Assembly (NCBI RefSeq): GCF_014267175.1
Contig: NZ_JACMTR010000002.1
Coordinates: forward strand, 6,043,129 to 6,107,128
Source: Pseudonocardia sp. C8
GTDB taxonomy: Bacteria > Actinomycetota > Actinomycetes > Mycobacteriales > Pseudonocardiaceae
Direction of reading: 5' to 3'
DNA: 64,000 nucleotides
The position numbers and the translations under genes are program-made. Below the pieces are notes generated by a model. The model was not told where the DNA came from and ran no database searches. It saw nothing but the letters and a program-made list of their open reading frames with translations. This document shows, in pieces, positions 9,428 to 21,139 of the stretch (positions are counted from its first letter, which is position 1; each line of letters starts with the position of its first letter).

Positions 9428-9919
9428 GTGAACCGTCGGAGCACGCGCACCACCCGGACCGGGCTGGTCGCCGGTCTGTGGGTCGCCGCAGCGGCCGGTG
9501 CCCTGCTGCTGGGGCTGACCGCGGTCGGCCAGATCGGCAGCGGCCTGTCCGGCGGCGACCCGGTCCGGCCGCTGGCCGCGGAGGAGGTCGAGGCCGCGCT
9601 GGCCCGGCACGCCGCCGCCCAGCACCGGCAGCCCGCGCCGCAGCCGCCGGCCACGCAGCCGCCGGCCGCGCGTCCGGCGCCGCAGGCACAGGCCCGGGTG
9701 GTGCCGGCCGGGCCGGCCGGGACGGTCCTCGTCCGCTGCGAGGGCGGGACCCCCCGGGTGGTCTCGGTGAACCCGGCCCAGGGTTTCGAGCGGGAGGACG
9801 ACGAGGACGTCGCCGCCGGCCAGGTGGCGTTCGACGGCGACGACCTCGACGTGCGCGTGGCGCTGAGCTGCACGAACGGGGTCCCGGCGGGCCGGGTCAG
9901 CACCCTCGGCGAGGGCTGA
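9428..9919 (+). CDS. Small membrane-anchored or secreted protein of unknown function
   Basis: The 163-residue product starts with GTG 9428. A transmembrane anchor (about 13-33, GLVAGLWVAAAAGALLLGL) is followed by a Pro/Ala/Gln linker (about 68-92). A compact C-terminal domain (95-163) has two cysteines, in VLVRCEGG and ALSCTNG, that could form a disulfide, and an acidic REDDEDVA turn. I do not recognise the family. It is divergent from the response regulator and shares its upstream box, so it may belong to the same regulon as the PepSY protein. Confidence 0.65.
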   Translation: MNRRSTRTTRTGLVAGLWVAAAAGALLLGLTAVGQIGSGLSGGDPVRPLAAEEVEAALARHAAAQHRQPAPQPPATQPPAARPAPQAQARVVPAGPAGTVLVRCEGGTPRVVSVNPAQGFEREDDEDVAAGQVAFDGDDLDVRVALSCTNGVPAGRVSTLGEG

Positions 9920-9924
9920 GCCCG

Positions 9925-10992
9925 CTATCCGTGCCGGCTCAGCTCGTGGAAGAAGTCCTCGATCACCGTGAGCTCGCCGGCCCGGACGACCTCGTCGTAG
10001 ACGTACCGGCCGACGGCGAGGTCGAGCACGCCCAGCCCGAACGGCGAGAACACCACCGGCCGGTCGGTGGGCAGCGTGACGCGGCCGGCCATGACGTCGT
10101 CCAGCGTCCCGTCCAGGAAGTCCCGGTTCCCGGTCAGCTGCTCGACCAGGTGCGGTGAGGTGTCGGCCTTCAGGCAGTGGTCGACGTCGTCGACGACGTT
10201 CGCGCCCGCCAGCAGGATCTCCGGCGCGAGGTCGCGCAGCGACACGTTGAGCACCAGCGGGTTGTGCGCGAACCAGGCGGGATCGTGCAGGTACGGCCGG
10301 GCCGCGACGGTGGCGAGCACGACCAGGTCGCTGGACCGGATCAACGACTCGGCGTCGTCGTGCACGGTGATCCGCCCGGGCCCGCCGGAGCGTTCCAGGT
10401 AGCCGCGGAACCCCTGCGCGCTGGCGGCGGCCAGGTCGTGCACCCCGACCTCGTCGAACGTCCACCCGGTCCCGGCCAGGAACGTGTGGATGTAGCGGGC
10501 GATCAGCCCGGTGCCGATGAACCCGACCCGGGCCGGCCGGGCCCGGTCGCGGGAGAGCCGGTCCGCGGCCAGCGCCGCCGACGCGGCGGTGCGGGTCGCG
10601 CTGATGATCGAGCTCTCCAGCACGGCGAACGGGTAGCCGGTGGCGGGGTCGTTGAGGATCAGCACGGCGGATGCCCTGGGCAGCCCGGCCGCCACGTTGT
10701 CCGGGAAGCTGGAGATCCACTTCAGGCCGTCGGTCCTGGCCGGCCCGCCGATCGAGGCGGGCAGCGCGATGATCCGCGCGTTCGGCCGGTCCGGGAACCG
10801 CAGGAAGTACGACGGCGGGTTCACCGAGTCCCCGGCCCCGTGCAGCCGGTAGGTGGCCTCGACGAGGTCGACGACGTCGCGCTCGCGGCCCTGCAGCACC
10901 CGCCGGACCTGCCCGCCCGGGATCACCGCGAACGGCGGCGGGGCGAGCGCCGGCGTCGCCGGGGACGGTGCGGATTCCTGGACACCGGTCAT
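9925..10992 (-). CDS. sbnB: SbnB-like N-(2-amino-2-carboxyethyl)-L-glutamate dehydrogenase
   Basis: The 355-residue protein belongs to the ornithine cyclodeaminase/mu-crystallin fold. The NAD-binding motif is VGFIGTGLIARYIH (about residues 145-158). The GLKWISSFPDN and YPFAVLESSIISATRTAA stretches are typical of SbnB. In Dap synthesis SbnB oxidatively cleaves the SbnA product (ACEGA) to L-2,3-diaminopropionate and 2-oxoglutarate. It is the last gene of a four-gene minus-strand operon; its ATG at 10992 overlaps the dioxygenase stop (ATGA). The matching sbnA lies at the other end of the cluster on the opposite strand, so both Dap enzymes bracket the NRPS genes. Longer upstream frames are shadows of the neighbouring gene. 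Confidence 0.88.
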   Translation of the reverse strand: MTGVQESAPSPATPALAPPPFAVIPGGQVRRVLQGRERDVVDLVEATYRLHGAGDSVNPPSYFLRFPDRPNARIIALPASIGGPARTDGLKWISSFPDNVAAGLPRASAVLILNDPATGYPFAVLESSIISATRTAASAALAADRLSRDRARPARVGFIGTGLIARYIHTFLAGTGWTFDEVGVHDLAAASAQGFRGYLERSGGPGRITVHDDAESLIRSSDLVVLATVAARPYLHDPAWFAHNPLVLNVSLRDLAPEILLAGANVVDDVDHCLKADTSPHLVEQLTGNRDFLDGTLDDVMAGRVTLPTDRPVVFSPFGLGVLDLAVGRYVYDEVVRAGELTVIEDFFHELSRHG

Positions 10993-11966
10993 CGGAGGTC
11001 TCCTGCTCGCATCGGGTCGCCGAGGCCGACGAGGATCTCGCGCGGCCCGTCGTAGGGGTCCCGGCCGTGTGCGGTCCGGATGTTGTCGACCAGCAGCAGG
11101 TCCCCGGCCTGCCACGGCTCGCGCAGGGTGTGCTGCTCGTAGGTCCCGGTGAGCAGATCGACGACGTCGCGGTCGATCGGGTCCCCGTTGCCGAACCGGG
11201 TGGTGAACGGCAGCCCGTCCGCCCCGTAGACGTCGATCAGGTACTCGCGGACCTCCGGTTCCATGGTCCACTCGTTGAGGAACGCGATCTGGTTGAACCA
11301 GCAGCGGCGGCCGGTGACCGGATGCCGCACGACCGCGCGGCGGTGCTGCCGGGTCCACAGGCCCCCGTCGGGCTGCCAGGCGAACTCGATCGCGTTCGCC
11401 CGGCAGTAGGCCTCGACGCTGCCGCGGTCGTCGGTGCCGAACGAGTCCGCGACCGACGCCCCGATCTCGGCGTTGTAGCTGCGGACCAGCTGCCAGCCCT
11501 CCCGCTCGAACCGGTCCACCAGCCCCGGTGGCAGCGCCTCCAGCACGCCCGGCGAGTCGGCCACCCCGGTCGTGCCGCCGGAGGACGGCGCGACCAGGCA
11601 GGCGAACAGCATCAGGCCGGGGAACTCGTGGGCGTAGCTCAGCTCGTGGTGCATGCACATCTGCTGGGCGGCCGGCCAGGTCGAGGACGAGTAGATGCCG
11701 TCGGCGTAGACCGTGCGGGCGGCGAAGGCCTCCCGCTCGGCCATCAGCCCGTCGGCGAGCCCCCGGAAGACGCCTTCGACGTCGCCGGGGTTGGCCAGCC
11801 CGAAGCCGCGGACCAGCACGGCGCCGTGCTCGACGACCAGGTGGCGCAGCGCGGCCCGGAACTCGTCCCAGGCCATCCCGCGCACGGCGTCGGCCGGCAG
11901 GAGCGGCGGGCGGCCCGGGCGCAGCTCGACGTCGAGCCGGGCGGACGGGGCGGAAGGGGTGGACAT
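10989..11966 (-). CDS. SyrP/TauD-like Fe(II)/2-oxoglutarate dioxygenase
   Basis: A 325-residue TauD/TfdA-family oxygenase. The iron ligands are visible as HHELSYAHEFP (His-x-Glu type, about residue 110) and a distal His in NIRTAHGRDPY (about 300), with the usual Arg near the C-terminus for 2-oxoglutarate. Members in NRPS clusters (SyrP and asparagine oxygenase-like enzymes) hydroxylate the beta carbon of free or carrier-bound amino acids. It sits between the A-T-TE NRPS and sbnB with overlapping or very close junctions: 13 bp after the NRPS stop, with AAGGAG in the gap. A Dap-derived residue is the likely substrate; this is inferred from context. Confidence 0.82.
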   Translation of the reverse strand: MSTPSAPSARLDVELRPGRPPLLPADAVRGMAWDEFRAALRHLVVEHGAVLVRGFGLANPGDVEGVFRGLADGLMAEREAFAARTVYADGIYSSSTWPAAQQMCMHHELSYAHEFPGLMLFACLVAPSSGGTTGVADSPGVLEALPPGLVDRFEREGWQLVRSYNAEIGASVADSFGTDDRGSVEAYCRANAIEFAWQPDGGLWTRQHRRAVVRHPVTGRRCWFNQIAFLNEWTMEPEVREYLIDVYGADGLPFTTRFGNGDPIDRDVVDLLTGTYEQHTLREPWQAGDLLLVDNIRTAHGRDPYDGPREILVGLGDPMRAGDLR

Positions 11967-11979
11967 CGGTGTCTCCTTC

Positions 11980-14900
11980 TCAGGACGAGGTCGTGACGGC
12001 GACGGAGCTGGTCACGGCCCGCGCCGCCGCGGCGGGCCGGGTGCGCAGGAAGTGGTGGCCGCCGTCGGGGAGCTCGTGCAGCTCCACCCGGTCGGCCAGG
12101 GCCTGCCACCCGCGGTGGCGGACCCGGTAACCGGCGGTGCCGGGGTCGTCCGCGGCGACGACGACGGTCACCGGCGCGGCCAGCCGCACCTGCGGCGGGT
12201 CGTCGAGCAGGTCGGCGAGCAGCAGGTTCGCCGTCGCGTGGTCGTGCCGGAACGCGGCACCGACCCGGGCGGCCCGGGGCGCGTCCAGCCGGTCGAGCTC
12301 CGGGTGCCCGCCCTCGGCGCCGAGCCCGGCCGCGATCTCGGCGTCGTCCCGGCCGGTGAGCGCCGCGACGTCGTTGCGCCGGCTCTCGGGTGTCCGGGGC
12401 AGCTGCGCCGCCAGGAACACCCGCTCGACGGCGGTCCCGCGCTCCTCCAGCACCGCGGCCGTGCGCAGCGCGAACGCGCAGCCCGCGGAGTGCCCCCACA
12501 GCAGGACCCGGCCCGGGGCGAGCGCGGTGATCTCCTCGGCCACCTGCGCCACGACGTCGTCGAGCGGGGCGAACGGGCGCGGTTCGGCCGCGTCGAGCTC
12601 GTGGCCCGGCAGCTCCACCGCGTGCACGGCGAGCCCGCTTCCGCGCAGCTCCGCGGCCATCGGCCGGTAGGTGACCGCGTTGCCGCCCGCGTAGGGGAAG
12701 CACACCAGCAGGCCGGTGGCGGCCGGGTCGTCGAGCAGCGGGAGCAGCAGCCCGGCAGGCGGCTCCACCCGGCCGTCGACCACGGCGGCCAGGTCGGCGA
12801 GGACGGGGTGGCGGGTCACGTCGGCCAGCGACACCACCCGGTCCAGCCCGATCACCACCTTGACCGCGGACAGCGACGTGCCGCCCAGGTCGAAGAAGTG
12901 GTCCCGGCGGTCGATCCGCTCGACCGGCAGCTCGAGCACCCGGGCGAACACGGCCGCGATCCGCTGCTCGGTCGGGCCGGTCGGCGGCTCGTGCCCCTCG
13001 CCGGGGGCCGCGGGGCCGTCGCCGGCGAGCTCCGCGGCGAGCGCGGTCAGCGCCTTCGTGTCGATCTTGCTGTTGGCGGTGAGCGGGAGCGCGGCCCGGT
13101 GGTGGAACGCGGTGGGCACCATGTAGCCGGGCAGCGACGCCGCGAGCCGCTCGCGCAGCAGCGTGTCCTCGATCGGCTGCCCCGCGGCGTAGAACGCGAC
13201 CAGGTGCTTGCCGCCGTCGGCCCCCTCGGTGACGACGACCGCCGCGTCCCGCACGCCGGGCACCCGGGCGAGGGTGTTCTCGATCTCGCCGATCTCGATC
13301 CGGAAGCCGCGGATCTTGACCTGGGTGTCCCGGCGGCCGAGGAACTCCAGGGTGCCGTCGGGCAGCCAGCGGCCGTGGTCGCCGCTGCGGTACAGGCGCT
13401 GGTGCGGCCGGTACGGGTCGGTGGTGAACGCCTGCCGGGTGCGTTCGGGGTCCCCGATGTAGCCGCGCCCGACGCACACCCCGGAGCAGACGATCTCGCC
13501 CGGCGCGCCGAGCGGGACCGGGACCAGGTTCTCGTCGACGACCCGGACGGCGGTGTTGCGCACCGGGCGGCCCAGCGGGACCCGGCCGTGCGCGGGCAGC
13601 CGGTCCAGCACGGCGTGCGTGAAGTCGTCCGAGGTCTCGGTCAGGCCGTAGGCGTTGGCGAGCCGGACCCCGGGCCGGGCGGCGAACCAGCGCGCCGCCA
13701 GCTCGGCCTTCAGCGCCTCCCCGGTGGTCGACACCGTGTGCAGGTCCGGCAGCTCCCGCGGGTGCGCGTCCAGGGAGGACAGCACGACCTCCAGGTACGA
13801 CGGCACCACCTGGACGACGTTCACCCGGGCGTCGGCGAGCCGGTCGAGGTAGCGGGCGACGTCGAGGATGAGGTCCTGCTCGATCAGCACCGTGCGCCCG
13901 CCGACCAGCAGGGCGGCGACCAGCTGCCACAGCGAGATGTCGAAGCACTGCGGCGCGGTCTGCGCGACCGCCTGACCCTCGCCGATCCCCAGGTCCTCGA
14001 TCTTGGCGAAAAGGTGGTTGAGCATGCCCGCGTGCTCGCACATCGCGCCCTTGGGCACCCCGGTCGAGCCGGAGGTGAAGTACAGGTAGGCGAGCCGGTC
14101 CGGGCCGATCTCGACGCCGAGGTCGTCGGCGGGCAGCGCGTCGAGCTCCGGGGCGTCGACCAGCAAGGTCCCGGGGGCGCCGTCGCCGAGCGACTCGAGC
14201 GCGCGGTCCAGGTTCGCGGTGCTGGCCGGTTCGGTCAGGACGAGCCGGCACCCGGCGCGGGACAGCGTGGTCGCGATCCGCTCGGGCGGGAAGTGCGGCT
14301 CGATCGGCAGGTAGGCGCCGCCGGCCTTGAACACGGCCAGCACCGACGCCATCCAGTCCAGGTTCCGCTCGGTCACCACCGCGACCGGGTCCTCCGGGGC
14401 CAGCCCGCGGTCCAGCAGCGCGCGGCCCAGCCGGTTCGCCCGGGCGTTGAGCTCGCGGTAGGTCCACCGGGTGTCGCCGAGCTCGGCGGCGACCGCCTCC
14501 GGGTGCGCGGCCACCCGCTGCTCGAACAGCTCGTGGAACCGGAGGTCGGGCAGCTCCCGGTCGGGGCCGTCGAGGTCCTCCAGCTGGTGGTGCAGCTCCT
14601 CGGCGGACAGCAGGTGCCGCCGCCCGGGTGCCGCGTCCGGCTCGGCGGACACGGCGTCGAGCGCCGCCAGGTGGTAGCCCCCGATCCGGGCCGCGCACTC
14701 CGCGTCGATCACGTCGGTGCGGTACCGCAGCCGCAGCACCGGCGGGCCGGCGTCCCGGACGGCGCCCACGGTCAGCACGAGGTCGCCGGTGGGCTCGCCG
14801 CCGTCCCCGGCCGGGTCGAGCAGGGTCTCGAACGGGGTGTCGTCCGGGACCGTCGACGGCCGGGCCGCGGCCTCGAGGACGGCCCGCCAGGACGGGGCAC

Positions 14901-15483
14901 CGGTGTCGATCCGCCGGGGCACCGGCTCCGCGCCCGGCGCGGGCCGGTACCCGGTGACGACCTCCGGCTCCCCGGACAGCGCCGCGAGCACCCGGGCGTG
15001 CGCAGCCAGCAGCGCCGCCTCGGCGGGGACGCCGCCGGGCAGGCCGGCCGGGAACCCGGCGGGCAGCGGGACGTCGTGCACCGCGGTACCGGGGGCCGGG
15101 TCGGTGCTCCAGCGGGGGATCCGGGTCGCGGCGCCGGGCCGGGCCGCAGGAGCCGGGCTCGGCGGTGCGGGTGCCGCGGAGGGGTCCGGGTGCGGTGGGG
15201 CCGGCGGCGGGGTTCCAGCGGGCCGGTCCGGGCGCGGCGGCGTGCCCGCCGGTGCGGGCGGTGCGGAAAGTGCCGGGCCCGGTGCGGCCGGCATCGCGGG
15301 GCCGGACGGTGCGGGGGGCGTCGGGAGTGCGGGCCCCGGGGAGGCGGGCGGGGCCGGGAGCGCCGGGCCCGGCGAGGCGGGTGGCGTGGGGAGTGCCGGG
15401 CCGGTCGCGGGCGGGGCCGGCAGGGACGGGCCGGGCGAGGCGGACGATGCGGGCGGGGTCGGGAGTGCGGGCCGGTCGGTCAT
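11980..15483 (-). CDS. NRPS module: condensation remnant, adenylation, thiolation, thioesterase
   Basis: The 1167-residue protein opens with about 105 residues of Pro/Ala-rich repeats (PTPPASPGPALPAPP-like). Residues about 120-270 resemble the C-terminal half of a condensation domain without HHxxxDG. The adenylation domain (285-815) is intact: YFTSGSTGVPKG (A3), NAYGLTETS (A5), YRSGDHGRW (A7), the GRRDTQVKIRGFRIEIGEIE segment (A8) and catalytic Lys806 in NSKID (A10). By alignment to the GrsA pocket I read D-I-W-Q-S-T-A-D-D; two acidic residues at the end of the pocket would suit a cationic side chain such as Dap. The carrier has LGGTSLSAV with Ser870. The thioesterase has GHSAG with Ser999. 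Start: ATG 15483 follows GGAGAGG; ATG 15522, overlapping the upstream stop, is an alternative. Confidence 0.88.
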   Translation of the reverse strand: MTDRPALPTPPASSASPGPSLPAPPATGPALPTPPASPGPALPAPPASPGPALPTPPAPSGPAMPAAPGPALSAPPAPAGTPPRPDRPAGTPPPAPPHPDPSAAPAPPSPAPAARPGAATRIPRWSTDPAPGTAVHDVPLPAGFPAGLPGGVPAEAALLAAHARVLAALSGEPEVVTGYRPAPGAEPVPRRIDTGAPSWRAVLEAAARPSTVPDDTPFETLLDPAGDGGEPTGDLVLTVGAVRDAGPPVLRLRYRTDVIDAECAARIGGYHLAALDAVSAEPDAAPGRRHLLSAEELHHQLEDLDGPDRELPDLRFHELFEQRVAAHPEAVAAELGDTRWTYRELNARANRLGRALLDRGLAPEDPVAVVTERNLDWMASVLAVFKAGGAYLPIEPHFPPERIATTLSRAGCRLVLTEPASTANLDRALESLGDGAPGTLLVDAPELDALPADDLGVEIGPDRLAYLYFTSGSTGVPKGAMCEHAGMLNHLFAKIEDLGIGEGQAVAQTAPQCFDISLWQLVAALLVGGRTVLIEQDLILDVARYLDRLADARVNVVQVVPSYLEVVLSSLDAHPRELPDLHTVSTTGEALKAELAARWFAARPGVRLANAYGLTETSDDFTHAVLDRLPAHGRVPLGRPVRNTAVRVVDENLVPVPLGAPGEIVCSGVCVGRGYIGDPERTRQAFTTDPYRPHQRLYRSGDHGRWLPDGTLEFLGRRDTQVKIRGFRIEIGEIENTLARVPGVRDAAVVVTEGADGGKHLVAFYAAGQPIEDTLLRERLAASLPGYMVPTAFHHRAALPLTANSKIDTKALTALAAELAGDGPAAPGEGHEPPTGPTEQRIAAVFARVLELPVERIDRRDHFFDLGGTSLSAVKVVIGLDRVVSLADVTRHPVLADLAAVVDGRVEPPAGLLLPLLDDPAATGLLVCFPYAGGNAVTYRPMAAELRGSGLAVHAVELPGHELDAAEPRPFAPLDDVVAQVAEEITALAPGRVLLWGHSAGCAFALRTAAVLEERGTAVERVFLAAQLPRTPESRRNDVAALTGRDDAEIAAGLGAEGGHPELDRLDAPRAARVGAAFRHDHATANLLLADLLDDPPQVRLAAPVTVVVAADDPGTAGYRVRHRGWQALADRVELHELPDGGHHFLRTRPAAAARAVTSSVAVTTSS

Positions 15484-15521
15484 CGGGTGGTCCTCTCCGG
15501 ACGGGTGGGTCGGGGCGGCCA

Positions 15522-18500
15522 TCAGGCGGCCCGCTCGAACGGGGACGGTGCGGGCGGTGGCGGTGCCGCGGTGACGGCGGTGGGCGCGTACCGGTCCGAC
15601 CGGATCTCGCCCGCCGGGTTGCCGCCCCAGTGCGCCCAGGCCGGCACCTCTTCGCCCTTCATGAGGAAGGAGTCGGCGGCGAGCACCGATCCGTCACCGA
15701 CGTGCACGCCGTAATGCACGAACGCGGCCACCCCGAGGGTCACGCCCGGGCCGAGCACGGTCCGGTCGGACTTGAACGCGCCGTCCTCCTGCGAGTGGCA
15801 CTGGACGATGCTCCCGGCGTTGAGCGTGCAGCCGTCGCCGATGGCGGTGAAGGAACGTTCGGTGAGGAAGCAGCCGTCGTCGAACACCCGGCGGCCGATC
15901 CGCACCCCCAGCAGCCGCCACAGCACGCACTTGAACGGGGTGCCGTCGAAGGCCGGGAAGTACGACTCGGAGGGGACCTTCCAGGCCCGCTCGTGCCGCC
16001 AGAACGTGCGGTCGTAGATCGAGCACCCGTTCGGGGCGAGGGTCTGCAGGTGCTCGGTGGCCCGCTCGACGAGCACGAAGAAGACGACCGTGAAGAGCAG
16101 GATCGCGGCCGGCACCGGCAGGAACGCCCACACCCCGTAGGTCCGGGACAGGTCGAACGCCCCGGTGGTCAGCATCAGCACACCGGCCAGGTGCAGCCAG
16201 CGCACCAGCAGCCGGAGCACGATGCTGCCGGCATTGTGCACGTTCTTCGAGGCCAGCCGGCGGCGCAGCTCGGCGGGCGGCAGCTCCAGGCCGGTGTCGC
16301 GCTCCACCGAGCGGGGGATCTCGAAGCTGGGCGAGCCGAGCAGGCCGACGCCGGACCGGACCGGCCCGTCGATCGGGACCATCACCTTCGTCGCGAGCAG
16401 GCAGTTGTCCCCGGTGCGGCCCTGCGCCGGGTAGGCGATGTTGTTGCCGAGGAAGTTGTCCGCGCCGATCGACACCTGCGACACCCGGAACGCCGACGCC
16501 GAGTAGTCGGCGTTGAGCAGCGACAGCCCGTCGGCGACGACCGTGCCCCGGCCGGCCGAGCTCAGGTACGGCGACTCGTGCTGGACGGCCATCCCGAAGT
16601 TCGACCCGGTCTGCACCACCGGGGTGAGCCGGTACCCGATCCAGCGCAGGTAGCCGACGATGTAGGACGAGTCCCCGAACAGCTCGGTGAAGAACTTCCG
16701 GTTGGTCGACCCGGCGATCACCCGGTGCGCCCAGTGGTGCAGCCCGTAGAGCCGGTACACCCGGTCCGCCCGGACCAGCGGCTGCAGCAGCCGGGGCAGG
16801 GTTCCGACGGCGAGCAGGCCGGCCAGCGACCCACCGGCGAACAGCAGCGCCGACCCGACGAGCGCCTCGGCGTAGAACCCGAGGCTCGTGAACGCCGATG
16901 TGCTGGTGTCGATCAGCGCGCCGAACTGCGGGACGGCGTTCAGCAGCAGCATCGCCCCGACCAGGACCAGCGGCGTCGTCACCGCGATCGGGAACAGCAG
17001 CAGCACGACCGGGAACACGACCCGGCGCAGCCGCGCGACCGGGAGCTCCGGCACGGTGCGGTAGTCGGTGCCGGTCGGCTGGGCCGGCGAGCCGTGCCAG
17101 TGCGCCCCGGGCGGCACCGCCTGCCCGGCGTGCAACGACGACGTGTGCCCGAGCTGGGCGCCGTCGCCGATCGACGTGCCGATGTCCAGCACGGTCTTCT
17201 CCCCGACGAGCACCTGGCTGCCCAGGGTGACCGGCCCGATCTGGATGACGCCGTCGTAGGCGCGGTAACCGGACAGGAACGAGTCCTTCCGGATCACCGT
17301 GCCGTCGCCGATCGCGATGAGGTCGGTGCACACCGGCACGTGCTTCGACAGCACGGTGACGTCCCGGCCGACCCGCGCGCCCAGTGCCCGCAGGTAGAGC
17401 AGGTAGAGCGGGGTTCCGGCGAACAGCGCCAGCGGGTTGGACCGGACGAGCGTGCGGACGATCCAGAACCGCAGGTAGGCCATGCTCCAGACCCGGATCT
17501 GGGCCGGCCGCCAGCGGCCGACGAGCACCCACTTCGCGATGATCGGCAGCACGCACAGGACCAGCAGCGTCGCGCCGGAGAACCCGACCGACCGCAGGTA
17601 CAGCTCGAGCAACCCGCTGCCGGCCAGCACCCACTCCAGCCCGCGGTACATCACGAGCATCGGGAGCGCGGAGTAGAGCAGGAACGCGAGCGCCTGCAGG
17701 GCGCCGCACAGCGCGTGCCGCGGGGTGCCGACCGGCTCCGGCATCGGGACGGGGGCGGCCTCGGCCACCGCGCCGGGGCCGGCGGTACCGGCCGCGCCGG
17801 ACGGCGTCCCGGAGCCGGCCACGCCGAGCGCGGTCGCCAGCTCCCGGATCGTGCCGTACCGGTAGACGTCCTTGATCGACACCGGCGGGAGGTCCGGGCG
17901 CTTGCGCAGCGCCGCGCAGAACCGGGCCATCGTCATCGAGTCGGCGCCGAGGTCGTCGAAGAAGTGCTGGTCCGGGCCGGCCTCGACGCCGAGCACCGCG
18001 GACAGCGCCTCGAGCAGGCTCCGCTGTGCCGGGCTGGACCCGTCATCGGCGAGCGCGCCGGCCAGCTCCCGCACCGTCGGGTGGCGGTAGACGTCCTTCA
18101 TCGACACCGGCGGCAGGTCCGCACGCCCGCGCAGCTTCGCGCAGAACCGGGCCATCGTCATCGAGTCGGCGCCGAGGTCGTCGAAGAAGTGCTGGTCCGG
18201 ACCGGCGGGCGTGCCGAGGACGTCGGACAGCACCGCGGCCAGGGCCGCCGCCGGGCCGCTCGGGGCCGCCGCGGCGGGCGCTGCGCCGGCCGGGACGGTG
18301 CGACCCGGGGCCGTGGCCCCCGTGCCGCCCGGGACGGTGCCTCCGGTTCCGCCCGGGACGGCCGTGGGCGCCGGGACGACGGCGGGGAGCCGGGTGGTGA
18401 CCGCGGCGGCCGGCGGCGGGGCGAGCGCGGTGCCCGGCCCGTACCGGTCGTGCTCGCGGTCCCGCCCGTCGACCCGGCCCAGGTACTCGAGCTCGCCGTT

Positions 18501-19799
18501 CGCGTTCACCCGCCCCAGGTCACCGGTGCGGTAGATCCGCCCCGACGGGTTGCCGGGGATCCCCAGGAAGTCCCGGATGAACACCTGCTCGGTGAGGTCG
18601 TCGTGGTTGAGGTAGCCGCAGGCCAGCCCGATCCCGGCGATCCCGATCTCCCCGGCCCGGCCGTGCGGCAGCGCGCGGTACGGGTCGGACACGTCGAGGA
18701 CCACGGTGCTGTACGTCGGCAGCGGGATCCCGATCGTGACCGGCCCGACCTGCCGCACCTCCGACCAGGTGGCGGTCACGGTGGCCTCGGTGGGGCCGTA
18801 CACGTTGAGGAACCGCCGCCCCGGCCGGCACCAGCGCCGCAGCTGGTCCGGCCGGCCGTCCTTGCCGCAGACCAGCAGGAACCGCAGCCCGGGCAGGCCG
18901 GCCGGGTCGAGGGTGTCGAGCACCTCGGGCACCGTGCAGAGCGCCGTGACCCGGTGCGCGTTCACGAACTCGGCCAGCGCCGGGCCCAGCAGGCCGGGGC
19001 CGGGGGGCCGCGGCACGAGCGTGGCCCCGCTGACCCACGGGACCCAGATCTCCTCGACCGCGAAGTCGAACGCCAGCGCCATGCCCTGGTAGACGCGGTC
19101 CTCGGGCCGGATCCGGTAGGTCTCGGCGGCGACCTTGACGAAGTTGCAGATGCTCGGGTGGTCGATCGCGACGCCCTCGGGGCGCCCGGACACCGACGCG
19201 TAGCTGATGTAGGCCAGCGGGTTGTCCCCGGCACCCCGCTCGGCGTCGATCAACCGGCGCCCGTCCAGCTCGTCGACCAGCGGCGCGACCGCGTCGAGGT
19301 GCACCAGCTCGGCGCCGGTCGCGGTGAGCAGGTCGATCTGCTCCACCCGGCGGGCCAGGTGCGACAGGGACAGCACGGTGCGCGCCCTGGCGTCCTCCAC
19401 GATGTACACCAGCCGCCCGGTGGGGGAGGTGACGTCCAGCGCGACGTAGGTGGCACCGATCTTGAGGACGGCCAGCATCGCGACGTACGCGTGCGCCGGG
19501 ACGTCGATGAGCAGCGCCACCCGGTCCCCGGGGCGCACCCCGCGCAGCCGCAGGTACCGGGCCAGGCGGTTGGCGCGGGTGTCGAGCTCGTCGTAGGTGA
19601 GGGAGAGCTCGGGGGAGTCGACGGCCAGCCGGTCGGTGCGGCCGTAGCGGCGGATCCAGTCGCACCGCTGCTCGAACAGGTGGTCCAGCCGCTCGTCGCG
19701 GCGGACCCGGCGGCCCTGGGGCTGGTCCCGGTCGACCAGCACCAGGTCGGAGACGGGCACCGCGGTGTCCGGCGTCGAGGATCCGGAACGCAGCGGCAC
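15522..19799 (-). CDS. Pls/PosA-type membrane NRPS with degenerate adenylation domain and tandem carriers
   Basis: The 1425-residue protein resembles epsilon-poly-lysine synthetase (Pls)/PosA-family NRPS. A truncated adenylation domain spans about 25-440. A5 (NVYGPTEAT) and A7 (YRTGDLGR) are normal, but A3 reads YASVSGRPEG instead of the SGTTG-x-PKG loop, and the sequence leaves the family at LGRVDGRD. The A8 motif, C-terminal subdomain and A10 lysine are therefore absent. Two carrier domains follow (FFDDLGADSMTMARF, Ser546 and Ser621), almost identical. From about 695 come membrane segments alternating with three hexapeptide beta-helix domains (about 803-900, 1066-1166, 1293-1400), matching the NRPS terminal domain of Pls proteins, where they condense monomers. 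Start GTG 19799 has GGAGGAGG 5 nt upstream. It heads the operon and overlaps the next NRPS frame. Confidence 0.85.
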   Translation of the reverse strand: MPLRSGSSTPDTAVPVSDLVLVDRDQPQGRRVRRDERLDHLFEQRCDWIRRYGRTDRLAVDSPELSLTYDELDTRANRLARYLRLRGVRPGDRVALLIDVPAHAYVAMLAVLKIGATYVALDVTSPTGRLVYIVEDARARTVLSLSHLARRVEQIDLLTATGAELVHLDAVAPLVDELDGRRLIDAERGAGDNPLAYISYASVSGRPEGVAIDHPSICNFVKVAAETYRIRPEDRVYQGMALAFDFAVEEIWVPWVSGATLVPRPPGPGLLGPALAEFVNAHRVTALCTVPEVLDTLDPAGLPGLRFLLVCGKDGRPDQLRRWCRPGRRFLNVYGPTEATVTATWSEVRQVGPVTIGIPLPTYSTVVLDVSDPYRALPHGRAGEIGIAGIGLACGYLNHDDLTEQVFIRDFLGIPGNPSGRIYRTGDLGRVNANGELEYLGRVDGRDREHDRYGPGTALAPPPAAAVTTRLPAVVPAPTAVPGGTGGTVPGGTGATAPGRTVPAGAAPAAAAPSGPAAALAAVLSDVLGTPAGPDQHFFDDLGADSMTMARFCAKLRGRADLPPVSMKDVYRHPTVRELAGALADDGSSPAQRSLLEALSAVLGVEAGPDQHFFDDLGADSMTMARFCAALRKRPDLPPVSIKDVYRYGTIRELATALGVAGSGTPSGAAGTAGPGAVAEAAPVPMPEPVGTPRHALCGALQALAFLLYSALPMLVMYRGLEWVLAGSGLLELYLRSVGFSGATLLVLCVLPIIAKWVLVGRWRPAQIRVWSMAYLRFWIVRTLVRSNPLALFAGTPLYLLYLRALGARVGRDVTVLSKHVPVCTDLIAIGDGTVIRKDSFLSGYRAYDGVIQIGPVTLGSQVLVGEKTVLDIGTSIGDGAQLGHTSSLHAGQAVPPGAHWHGSPAQPTGTDYRTVPELPVARLRRVVFPVVLLLFPIAVTTPLVLVGAMLLLNAVPQFGALIDTSTSAFTSLGFYAEALVGSALLFAGGSLAGLLAVGTLPRLLQPLVRADRVYRLYGLHHWAHRVIAGSTNRKFFTELFGDSSYIVGYLRWIGYRLTPVVQTGSNFGMAVQHESPYLSSAGRGTVVADGLSLLNADYSASAFRVSQVSIGADNFLGNNIAYPAQGRTGDNCLLATKVMVPIDGPVRSGVGLLGSPSFEIPRSVERDTGLELPPAELRRRLASKNVHNAGSIVLRLLVRWLHLAGVLMLTTGAFDLSRTYGVWAFLPVPAAILLFTVVFFVLVERATEHLQTLAPNGCSIYDRTFWRHERAWKVPSESYFPAFDGTPFKCVLWRLLGVRIGRRVFDDGCFLTERSFTAIGDGCTLNAGSIVQCHSQEDGAFKSDRTVLGPGVTLGVAAFVHYGVHVGDGSVLAADSFLMKGEEVPAWAHWGGNPAGEIRSDRYAPTAVTAAPPPPAPSPFERAA
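17926..18206. repeat. 225-bp tandem duplication of the carrier-domain coding unit
   Basis: The segment at 17926-17981 and the one at 18151-18206 are identical over 56 bp except for one base, and the similarity continues at lower level across the whole 225-bp (75-codon) unit. Both encode the carrier core around FFDDLGADSMTMARFCA. This indicates a recent in-frame duplication, or gene conversion keeping the active-site helix identical. Confidence 0.8.
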
Positions 19800-20161
19800 C
19801 TGGCCTCCTCCGGAGCACGGACGGGCGCCGACCGGCCCCTCCCCGCCGTCGGCGCAGGTGGGAAGGCTGGCACCGGCCGGCGGGGTGGTCAACGCCCGCG
19901 CGGCCCCGGCGGGGGTGGAATAGCCAGTTCTGACGACGGGCAGGCCGGGGACGGTCGGTGCGGGCATGGGACGAGCATCCGCTGCGGACGGCCGGCCGGG
20001 AAGCCGTGCGGGCCCCCCGCGGGCCGGTGCCGGCACCCGGGGGCTGTCCCTACTCCGGAACGGGGGCGGCCACCGCGGAACCGGGTGTGCACACGATCGA
20101 GCCGGAGGCCGCCGGGGACGACCGTTGTCCTCAGTCGCACCGAGCGAAAGAGGCGGTCCCA
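19800..20161. other. Divergent promoter region of the Dap/NRPS cluster
   Basis: This 362-bp gap separates the minus-strand NRPS operon from sbnA. It must hold both promoters, but I see no convincing -35/-10 pair, no iron box of the DtxR/IdeR type and no strong dyad. Ribosome-binding sites are clear at both ends: GGAGGAGG before GTG 19799 and AAAGAGG before ATG 20162. Confidence 0.5.
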
Positions 20162-21139
20162 ATGTCGATCATCACCGGTCCCCAGCAGTTCAACCAGGAC
20201 GACCTGTACGTCGACCTCCGCGCGACCGTCGGCCACGAGCTGTACCTCAAGTGCGAGGGCTTCAACTTCGCAGGCTCGGTCAAGCTGAAGGCCGCCACGG
20301 CGATGGTCGAGGCCGCCGAGCGGGACGGGATCCTGCGGCCGGGTTCGTTCCTGGTCGAGTCGTCGTCCGGCAACCTCGGCGTCGCGCTCAGCATGATCGC
20401 CGCCAACCGCGGCTACCGGTTCGTGTGCGTCACCGACTCCCGCTGCAACCTGGCGACCCGCCGGCTGATGGAGTCCTTCGGCGCCGAGGTGCACGTGATC
20501 ACCGAGCCGGACCCCGAGGGCGGCCTGCTCGGCGCCCGCAAGAACCACGTCCGCGAGCTGTGCGCCTCCGACGAGCGCTTCGTCTGGCTGAACCAGTACG
20601 AGAACCCGAACGCCTGGAAGGCGCACTACGCCACCACCGGGCCGGCGATCGCCCGCGAGTTCCCGCAGGTCGACGTGATCTTCGTGGGCGCCGGCACCTG
20701 CGGCACGCTGATGGGCATCGCCCGGTACTTCCGGGAGACGAACCCGGACGTCCGCATCGTGGCCGTCGACAGCGTCGGCTCGGTGACCTTCGGCGGTCCC
20801 GCGTCCCGCCGGATGATCCCCGGCCTGGGCAGCGGCGAGCGCCCGCCGCAGCTCGACGAGTCCTACGTCGACGACGTCGTCCTGGTCGAGGAGGCCGACA
20901 CCGTCCGGACCTGCCACCAGCTGGCCCGCACCGGCTTCCTGTTCGGCGGCTCCACCGGCACCGTCGTCAGCGGCGCGACCGCCTGGCTGGCCGAGCACGG
21001 CACGCCCGGCATGACCTGCGTCGCGCTGGCCCCCGACTTCGGCGAGCGCTACATGGACACCATCTACCAGCAGCACTGGGTCGAGGACCTCTACGGCGAC
21101 GACGTCCTCGCCGGCGAGCCGGTCCTGGCCGCAGCGTGA
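20162..21139 (+). CDS. sbnA: SbnA-like PLP enzyme, first step of L-2,3-diaminopropionate synthesis
   Basis: The 325-residue protein is of the cysteine-synthase fold. The PLP lysine is Lys41 in FAGSVKLKAA. The substrate loop is ESSSGNLGVALSM, and the phosphate-binding loop is GAGTCGTLMG. SbnA enzymes join O-phospho-L-serine and L-glutamate to N-(1-amino-1-carboxyl-2-ethyl)-glutamate, which SbnB then cleaves to Dap. Start: ATG 20162 with AAAGAGG 8 nt upstream; a longer frame exists but lacks a ribosome-binding site. It is transcribed away from the NRPS operon that carries sbnB. Its 3' end overlaps the convergent kinase gene by 49 bp. The presence of both enzymes beside NRPS genes makes Dap the predicted building block. 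Confidence 0.9.
   Translation: MSIITGPQQFNQDDLYVDLRATVGHELYLKCEGFNFAGSVKLKAATAMVEAAERDGILRPGSFLVESSSGNLGVALSMIAANRGYRFVCVTDSRCNLATRRLMESFGAEVHVITEPDPEGGLLGARKNHVRELCASDERFVWLNQYENPNAWKAHYATTGPAIAREFPQVDVIFVGAGTCGTLMGIARYFRETNPDVRIVAVDSVGSVTFGGPASRRMIPGLGSGERPPQLDESYVDDVVLVEEADTVRTCHQLARTGFLFGGSTGTVVSGATAWLAEHGTPGMTCVALAPDFGERYMDTIYQQHWVEDLYGDDVLAGEPVLAAA

Follow-up and report, generated by a model that had tools for sequence, protein, structure and literature searches.

How does a membrane polymerase of amino acids work when the domain that should activate its substrate is broken? To our knowledge, the cationic poly-amino acids described so far are each made by one self-contained enzyme, and the question is raised by a five-gene cluster of Pseudonocardia sp. 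C8 that looks otherwise organized. It lies at positions 9925 to 21139 of a 64,000-nucleotide stretch (hereafter the window, whose numbering we use throughout) of contig NZ_JACMTR010000002.1, which accounts for 6.1 Mb of a 6.24-Mb genome. The cluster holds homologues of sbnA and sbnB for the synthesis of 2,3-diaminopropionate (Dap), a TauD-type Fe(II)/2-oxoglutarate oxygenase, a protein with adenylation (A), carrier (T) and thioesterase (TE) domains, and a membrane polymerase of the Pls/PosA type. An initial annotation, made from the sequence alone, had recognized these five genes, and all are found with small corrections to their coordinates. The four on the minus strand are as closely packed as it had described: the sbnB start overlaps the oxygenase stop by 4 nucleotides, 13 nucleotides separate the oxygenase and A-T-TE genes, and the latter overlaps the Pls-type gene by 1 nucleotide (TGATG). 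We consider it probable, with some reserve, that the cluster encodes a split synthetase of a cationic poly-amino acid, activated in trans, with Dap units and TauD-type oxidation.

The membrane protein (15522 to 19760, minus strand; GTG at 19760 is the most likely start, inside a frame open to 20162) is at the center of the argument. Its assignment to the Pls/PosA type is borne out by TIGR02353 (689.9 bits, cut-off 423.1) and by Kyte-Doolittle hydropathy, which gives hydrophobic stretches near residues 817-884, 1042-1123 and 1313-1372, arranged as three C-terminal pairs, at a threshold that also flags residues 215-245 inside the A core. The Pls/PosA terminal domain (residues 819-1517; 15612 to 17708, minus strand) would thus comprise transmembrane pairs and three soluble segments, and two tandem carrier domains stand in cis before it (17733 to 18248, minus strand; two PF00550 stretches and two DDLGADSM motifs). 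The A core at 18480 to 19700 on the same strand still has motifs A5 and A7, but its P-loop reads ASVSGRPEG, motifs A3 and A10 are lost, and the domain is truncated C-terminally, missing the subdomain with the catalytic lysine. A complete A domain in cis is a feature of Pls, PosA and the poly-Dap synthetase of Streptomyces albulus; judged from its sequence, the window protein has none, and its own A domain looks dead.

The same holds for its relatives beside TauD genes. From 130 membrane proteins collected in TauD loci we dropped 10 duplicates, then 4 of the remaining 120 with incomplete Pls domains, and among the 116 full-length ones an intact A domain was seen in none: it is broken in 29 and undetected in 87 (5 of the latter start less than 1.6 kb from the end of their stretch, so that an A domain may lie out of view). 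Once L171, with its incomplete Pls domain, is included, there are 30 A-bearing proteins; the A10 lysine is found in none of them, and the P-loop is intact in none of the 27 where its position is visible. Since this domain is broken in the window protein and either broken or unseen in the full-length relatives, we infer that activation occurs in trans.

Control loci look very different. We used 20 Pseudonocardia Pls-type loci away from TauD genes, picked among the matches listed, and L011, at 3.07 Mb of the window's genome, which encodes a complete self-loading Pls-type enzyme with pocket code DFECLGTVTK. An in-frame A domain is present in 19 of these 21 proteins, with P-loop and A10 lysine intact in all 19, and no TauD, SbnA, SbnB or TE was found in any of the 21 stretches; the other two proteins have the A core in another frame (L231) or no A domain at all (L240). 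The initial annotation had remarked that the cluster departs from single-enzyme Pls systems, which is supported; it had noted neither the two carriers in tandem nor the truncated, broken A domain of the membrane protein. A quick membrane-domain tree (94 rows, with every third named A-less locus and the Pseudonocardia ones, L237 left out), whose long branches meet, groups the intact L226, L227 and L238 with L240 and the proteins from TauD loci in a single clade of 78 rows. Complete loss of the A domain looks repeated, because broken and absent states are intermixed in this tree and at least seven changes of the broken label are required on starred branches.

The missing activity is available next door. 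The A-T-TE protein (11980 to 15522, minus strand) matches AMP-binding, AMP-binding_C, PP-binding and Thioesterase in Pfam, and its A domain (13018 to 14547, minus strand) has an intact A3 motif (TSGSTGVPKG), the A10 lysine and the pocket code DIWQSTADDK. Among 105 partner A-T proteins, which remained of 114 once 9 duplicate or partial ones were dropped, A3 and the A10 lysine are intact in all. The initial annotation was right about the presence of this separate protein; it had counted it as an additional module, whereas it is best read as the activating partner of the membrane protein, because the latter lacks the parts needed for adenylation. Its proposal that the thioesterase releases the product does not stand as a general step, because only 49 of the 105 partner proteins have a TE; none of the 56 without one runs up to a stretch end, and they include those of the close relatives L012 and L013 (the TE is present in a third, L153). 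In L171 a single 1437-residue frame suggested an A-T-TE/TauD fusion, which we rejected since the TE end is out of frame at the junction, most likely by a frameshift. At L198/L199 (G043:C44, 45774 to 57792) about 12 kb of other sequence splits the A-T gene into two pieces.

The five genes also travel together. With the oxygenase as bait, the best 80 of 246 relatives from a scan of genome contigs were retained, and 59 Pseudonocardia stretches (L152-L210), the window and a second locus of the window's genome were added. Of 140 stretches, L210, which has no oxygenase above 50% identity, and 10 duplicates were dropped, which left 129 distinct loci; 24 of these had less than 5.5 kb on one side, and 105 full-context TauD loci remained. 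Within 17 kb of the oxygenase, the Pls-type gene is found in 105 of 105 loci, A-T in 94, SbnA in 92 and SbnB in 92. These are minimum values wherever a stretch is cut short, as in L014, and membrane proteins without an oxygenase fall outside them, the oxygenase being the bait. All four companions are present in 87 loci, so the search for clusters with the same five genes, a check named beforehand in the annotation, returned many, and the grouping is not due to chance. The oxygenase is tied most tightly to the membrane protein.

The two Dap synthesis genes exceed the NCBI equivalog cut-offs, in line with the Dap synthesis predicted by the annotation: SbnB (9925 to 10992, minus strand) scores 415.4 bits on TIGR03944 (cut-off 326.9) and SbnA (20162 to 21139, plus strand; ATG at 20162) 393.5 bits on TIGR03945 (cut-off 350.0). 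The sbnB frame opens at 11658, which is an unlikely gene start, and we prefer the ATG at 10992. The oxygenase (10989 to 11966, minus strand) matches TauD (PF02668) with a score of 146 against a cut-off of 27. Its membership in the TauD/TfdA family is indicated by the HxE...H triad and the 2-oxoglutarate-binding arginine (H106, E108, H300 and R309 line up with 1y0z and are conserved in an alignment of 40 sequences), and the fold agrees by structure search. This search returned many TauD-fold enzymes, among them Rv0097 and ScoE, which we take to be isonitrile-forming enzymes; 1y0z stands out, with a title that gives no function, and because the other rows bunch within about 2 Z units they assign no reaction to the oxygenase. 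Its closest named relatives are from Pseudonocardia (86-90% identity), and one relative (P0009) bears the source name "putative SyrP-like protein". A SyrP-type beta-hydroxylation of Dap is no more than a possibility; since hydroxylation of free Dap at C-beta would, on chemical grounds, yield an unstable carbinolamine, it is doubtful on the free amino acid.

These elements suggest the following mechanism. SbnA and SbnB would make L-Dap, as their families do; the A-T-TE protein would adenylate it and load it in trans onto both carriers of the polymerase, whose membrane domain, as in its family, would link Dap units iteratively. The constant pairing of oxygenase and membrane protein suggests that the former acts on carrier-bound Dap or on the growing chain. 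The TE, which would be non-essential, most likely edits misloaded carriers or aids release. The dead A domain, kept by selection in the window's clade, would probably serve as a non-catalytic module for binding or docking.

Selection on this domain was assessed by the ratio of nonsynonymous to synonymous substitution rates (dN/dS) with Nei-Gojobori counts; GC-rich genomes bias synonymous sites, so only comparisons between values count. Against three near relatives, the broken A core gives 0.13-0.15, the intact A domain of the partner 0.18-0.28, the oxygenase 0.18-0.22 and the Pls domain 0.40-0.44; against two more distant ones, the values are 0.32 for the broken core and 0.35-0.37 for the partner A domain. 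The broken core has the lowest ratio among the regions measured in all five comparisons. More broadly, A-core ratios range over 0.13-0.36 in eight broken-A pairs and 0.13-0.32 in seven intact pairs, and exceed those of the Pls domain in two of the former (L170-L172, L200-L203) and three of the latter. The broken core is thus under purifying selection, at least in the window's clade, which suggests a non-catalytic role; in other clades of the broken domain pocket residues are lost (GGECLSAVA, DSESLAVVS). In a bolder and rather speculative version, the retained core would be a pseudo-enzyme recruited as a working part of the polymerase, for example as a pocket for the acceptor, be it Dap or the end of the chain, or as a site where the A-T protein docks, and the cluster would make a new class of oxidized poly-Dap with all activation in trans.

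Several observations weigh against a split synthetase fed with Dap by its partner. In genome G008, which encodes the oxygenase and a broken-A polymerase, no A-T or SbnB was found (24 best A-T candidates scored), which argues against a strict need for the partner, unless that copy of the system is idle. More generally, 11 of the 105 full-context loci have no A-T within 17 kb. In eight of them (L187, L193, L200, L202, L203, L207, L208 and the second locus of the window's genome) an A-T gene lies elsewhere in the genome; the remaining three are L204, which is the G008 locus, L044 and L065, the last two judged within their stretches. The A domain can also be missing away from TauD genes, because L240 (G029:C1:2200500-2208500) is a T-Pls protein without A domain and without TauD in its 8-kb stretch. 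Conservation of the broken core is similar to that of intact cores and, with A5 and A7 persisting, it may not be inert. Finally, the pocket code of the partner alone cannot separate Dap from 2,4-diaminobutyrate (Dab).

The alternative that survives best, although we hold it to be unlikely, is that of a small, defined product: an oxidized Dap unit or a short conjugate would come from the A-T(-TE) protein and the oxygenase, and the membrane protein would cap, transfer or export it rather than polymerize. The presence in one cluster of a Dap-type A domain, SbnA/SbnB, an Fe/2-oxoglutarate oxygenase and a TE speaks for it, and the nearest logic is that of sulfazecin, which has SbnA/SbnB-like Dap synthesis, a Dap-loading terminal module and an Fe/2-oxoglutarate oxygenase. 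Yet 56 of the 105 partners do without the TE, and the most constant companion of the oxygenase is a Pls-type polymerase domain, present in every locus. Furthermore, Pfam finds no condensation domain in the A-T-TE protein and matches nothing at its N terminus. There, matches in the PDB to Txo1 and Txo2 begin within the condensation domain, and the N-terminal lobe may be a remnant of such a domain.

It is more improbable that the same split polymerase uses Dab or another small amino acid. Pocket codes were taken from the alignment by motif position, with the GrsA positions as reference. They are nearly invariant among the 105 partners (DIWQSTADDK in 95, DIWQSTTDDK in 7, DIWQCTTDDK in 3) and close to the DIWELTADD that aligns, over the nine positions covered, in PvdL, the second PDB match of the pocket segment; that PvdL domain presumably takes Dab. 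The best match (E 2.3e-21) is 9n1u/9n1v, and the title of 9n1v, as far as it is given, describes a methyl-2,3-diaminopropanoate inhibitor complex of an A3 adenylation domain, which agrees with the Dap-type specificity expected by the annotation, or more broadly a Dap/Dab-type one. The W and the DD pair are common to the partner code and to the pockets of PvdL and 9n1u/9n1v. That the partner activates Dap or Dab is well supported by these similarities. Dap is favored because sbnA and sbnB sit in the cluster, and each of them is found in 92 of the 105 loci.

We are just as skeptical, if not slightly more so, of an ordinary poly-Dap synthetase, whose Pls-type protein would activate Dap itself, as the PDAPs of S. 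albulus does, with the A-T-TE protein as an accessory. The overall domain order is the same, the A core is under purifying selection, and a known enzyme makes poly-Dap in this way, as excerpts of its description state (PMC4668381). The pocket of the broken domain, DFECLCVVT, is one residue off the DFECLSVVTK of the intact L226, L227 and L238, and it keeps both the F at position 2 found in poly-Dap and poly-Dab synthetases and the conserved Glu at position 3, according to excerpts of the PosA paper (PMC10522769). These near-identical codes, with the shared F and E, make it most likely that the broken domain descends from a self-loading enzyme of the poly-Dap/poly-Dab type. The retained D-F-E, however, comes with a broken P-loop and no C-terminal subdomain; an intact domain is found in none of the 30 A-bearing relatives in TauD loci, and 87 of the 116 full-length proteins show no A domain. 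That the cluster is decaying and non-functional, as the broken A domain here and, in some relatives, the L171 frameshift and the split A-T gene of G043 might hint, is hardly credible when all five window genes are open, dN/dS against three near relatives is 0.13-0.44 for the A domains, the Pls domain, the oxygenase, SbnA and SbnB (higher only in the linker, C-lobe and T), and the five genes stay together in 87 of 105 loci.

A split synthetase activated in trans, which we continue to prefer, would differ from each of the known systems. The PDAPs of S. albulus PD-1 is a single protein with an active A domain that makes poly-Dap; in the excerpted account it shares with the window SbnA/SbnB-made Dap, a carrier domain and a Pls-type membrane domain with three soluble segments, but it activates its own substrate and the Dap genes are not adjacent (PMC4668381). 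The window instead places adenylation in a separate A-T-TE protein; its cluster is compact and includes an oxygenase, and its polymerase combines two carriers with a broken A domain. Pls, for epsilon-poly-lysine, and PosA, for delta-poly-ornithine, also activate their own monomers, again as given in excerpts (PMC10522769). Two other systems offer partial parallels, among which is sulfazecin (SulG, SulH, SulM, SulO), with Dap synthesis genes, a Dap-loading A-T-TE module and an Fe/2-oxoglutarate oxygenase, but which is a beta-lactam peptide made without a Pls-type polymerase. The other is streptothricin (ORF5, ORF18, ORF19), where a separate protein adenylates for a diamino-acid oligomer, as proposed here, with beta-lysine as the monomer. 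In the open-access literature, to which the search extended, we found no account of a split synthetase that is loaded in trans and accompanied by an oxygenase, and the pocket code and similar codes led only to papers whose titles look unrelated. Poly-Dap from one self-loading enzyme is known already, and the split form with an oxygenase is apparently new. If our proposal is correct, the membrane polymerase can operate separately from its adenylation domain, and it should then become possible to supply it with other monomers and to examine chain growth without adenylation. The loci would also offer a natural series of adenylation domains from intact to broken to lost, including a conserved pseudo-adenylation domain, and the oxygenase may bring a new chemical group to a family of polymers used as food preservatives and antimicrobials.

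Within its lineages the cluster is no rarity, with many Streptomyces loci and an oxygenase relative in 42 of 62 Pseudonocardia genomes (E <= 1e-60). In the same 62 genomes, A-T was found in 36 (E <= 1e-150; 24 best candidates scored per genome) and SbnB in 39 (E <= 1e-100), and among the matches listed every genome with A-T or SbnB has the oxygenase too. The six oxygenase genomes without an A-T match are G004, G045 and G053 (in all three the locus is cut by a contig end), G055 (72% complete, with only part of the oxygenase visible), G043 and G008. The retained oxygenase relatives come from Streptomyces, Pseudonocardia, Amycolatopsis, Kutzneria, Kibdelosporangium, Actinomadura, Actinoplanes, Geodermatophilus and a few metagenome bins. 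Across an evenly drawn sample of Actinomycetota, the oxygenase is found (E <= 1e-90) in 12 of 396 genomes, including the window's, and in 3 of 246 genera. Across 81 sources (the 80 retained and the window), the five gene families recur in 80, 74, 74, 72 and 67, and the next family in 20; for most of these sources no A domain is seen on the polymerase.

Some loci depart from the common arrangement. The second locus of the window's genome, at 3.51 Mb of C2, places sbnA, a 56% identical oxygenase gene and a T-Pls gene lacking the A domain next to one another (L009 14510-19001, 13 bases into L010; G000:C2 about 3511509-3516014), with no adjacent sbnB or A-T. In L203 (G026:C2, 281,542 bases) and L204 (G008:C2, 289,155 bases), the oxygenase and the broken-A polymerase share an identical 1113-residue stretch in two species, and these contigs of similar size are perhaps a plasmid. 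In L044, L051, L059 and L065, where no A-T, sbnA or sbnB was seen, the oxygenase and T-Pls genes are followed by an exosortase-associated acyl-CoA ligase (TIGR03098, 762 bits in L044) and a carrier protein; L051 also holds an apparent 196-residue remnant of an A-T gene. At least 15 matches to the Pls/PosA domain (E <= 0.001) occur in each of the Pseudonocardia genomes G004 and G061. A PALP enzyme near threonine synthase accompanies the cluster, inside it or next to it, in 8 of the 81 sources, for example in L038 (12096-13259; 235 bits, below the threonine synthase cut-off of 303). In the window itself, the polymerase and sbnA genes diverge from an intergenic region at 19761 to 20161, if the polymerase starts at 19760, and a small plus-strand open reading frame of 163 residues (9428-9919) that adjoins sbnB and matches nothing in Pfam or NCBIfam has relatives in 3 of the 81 clustered sources.

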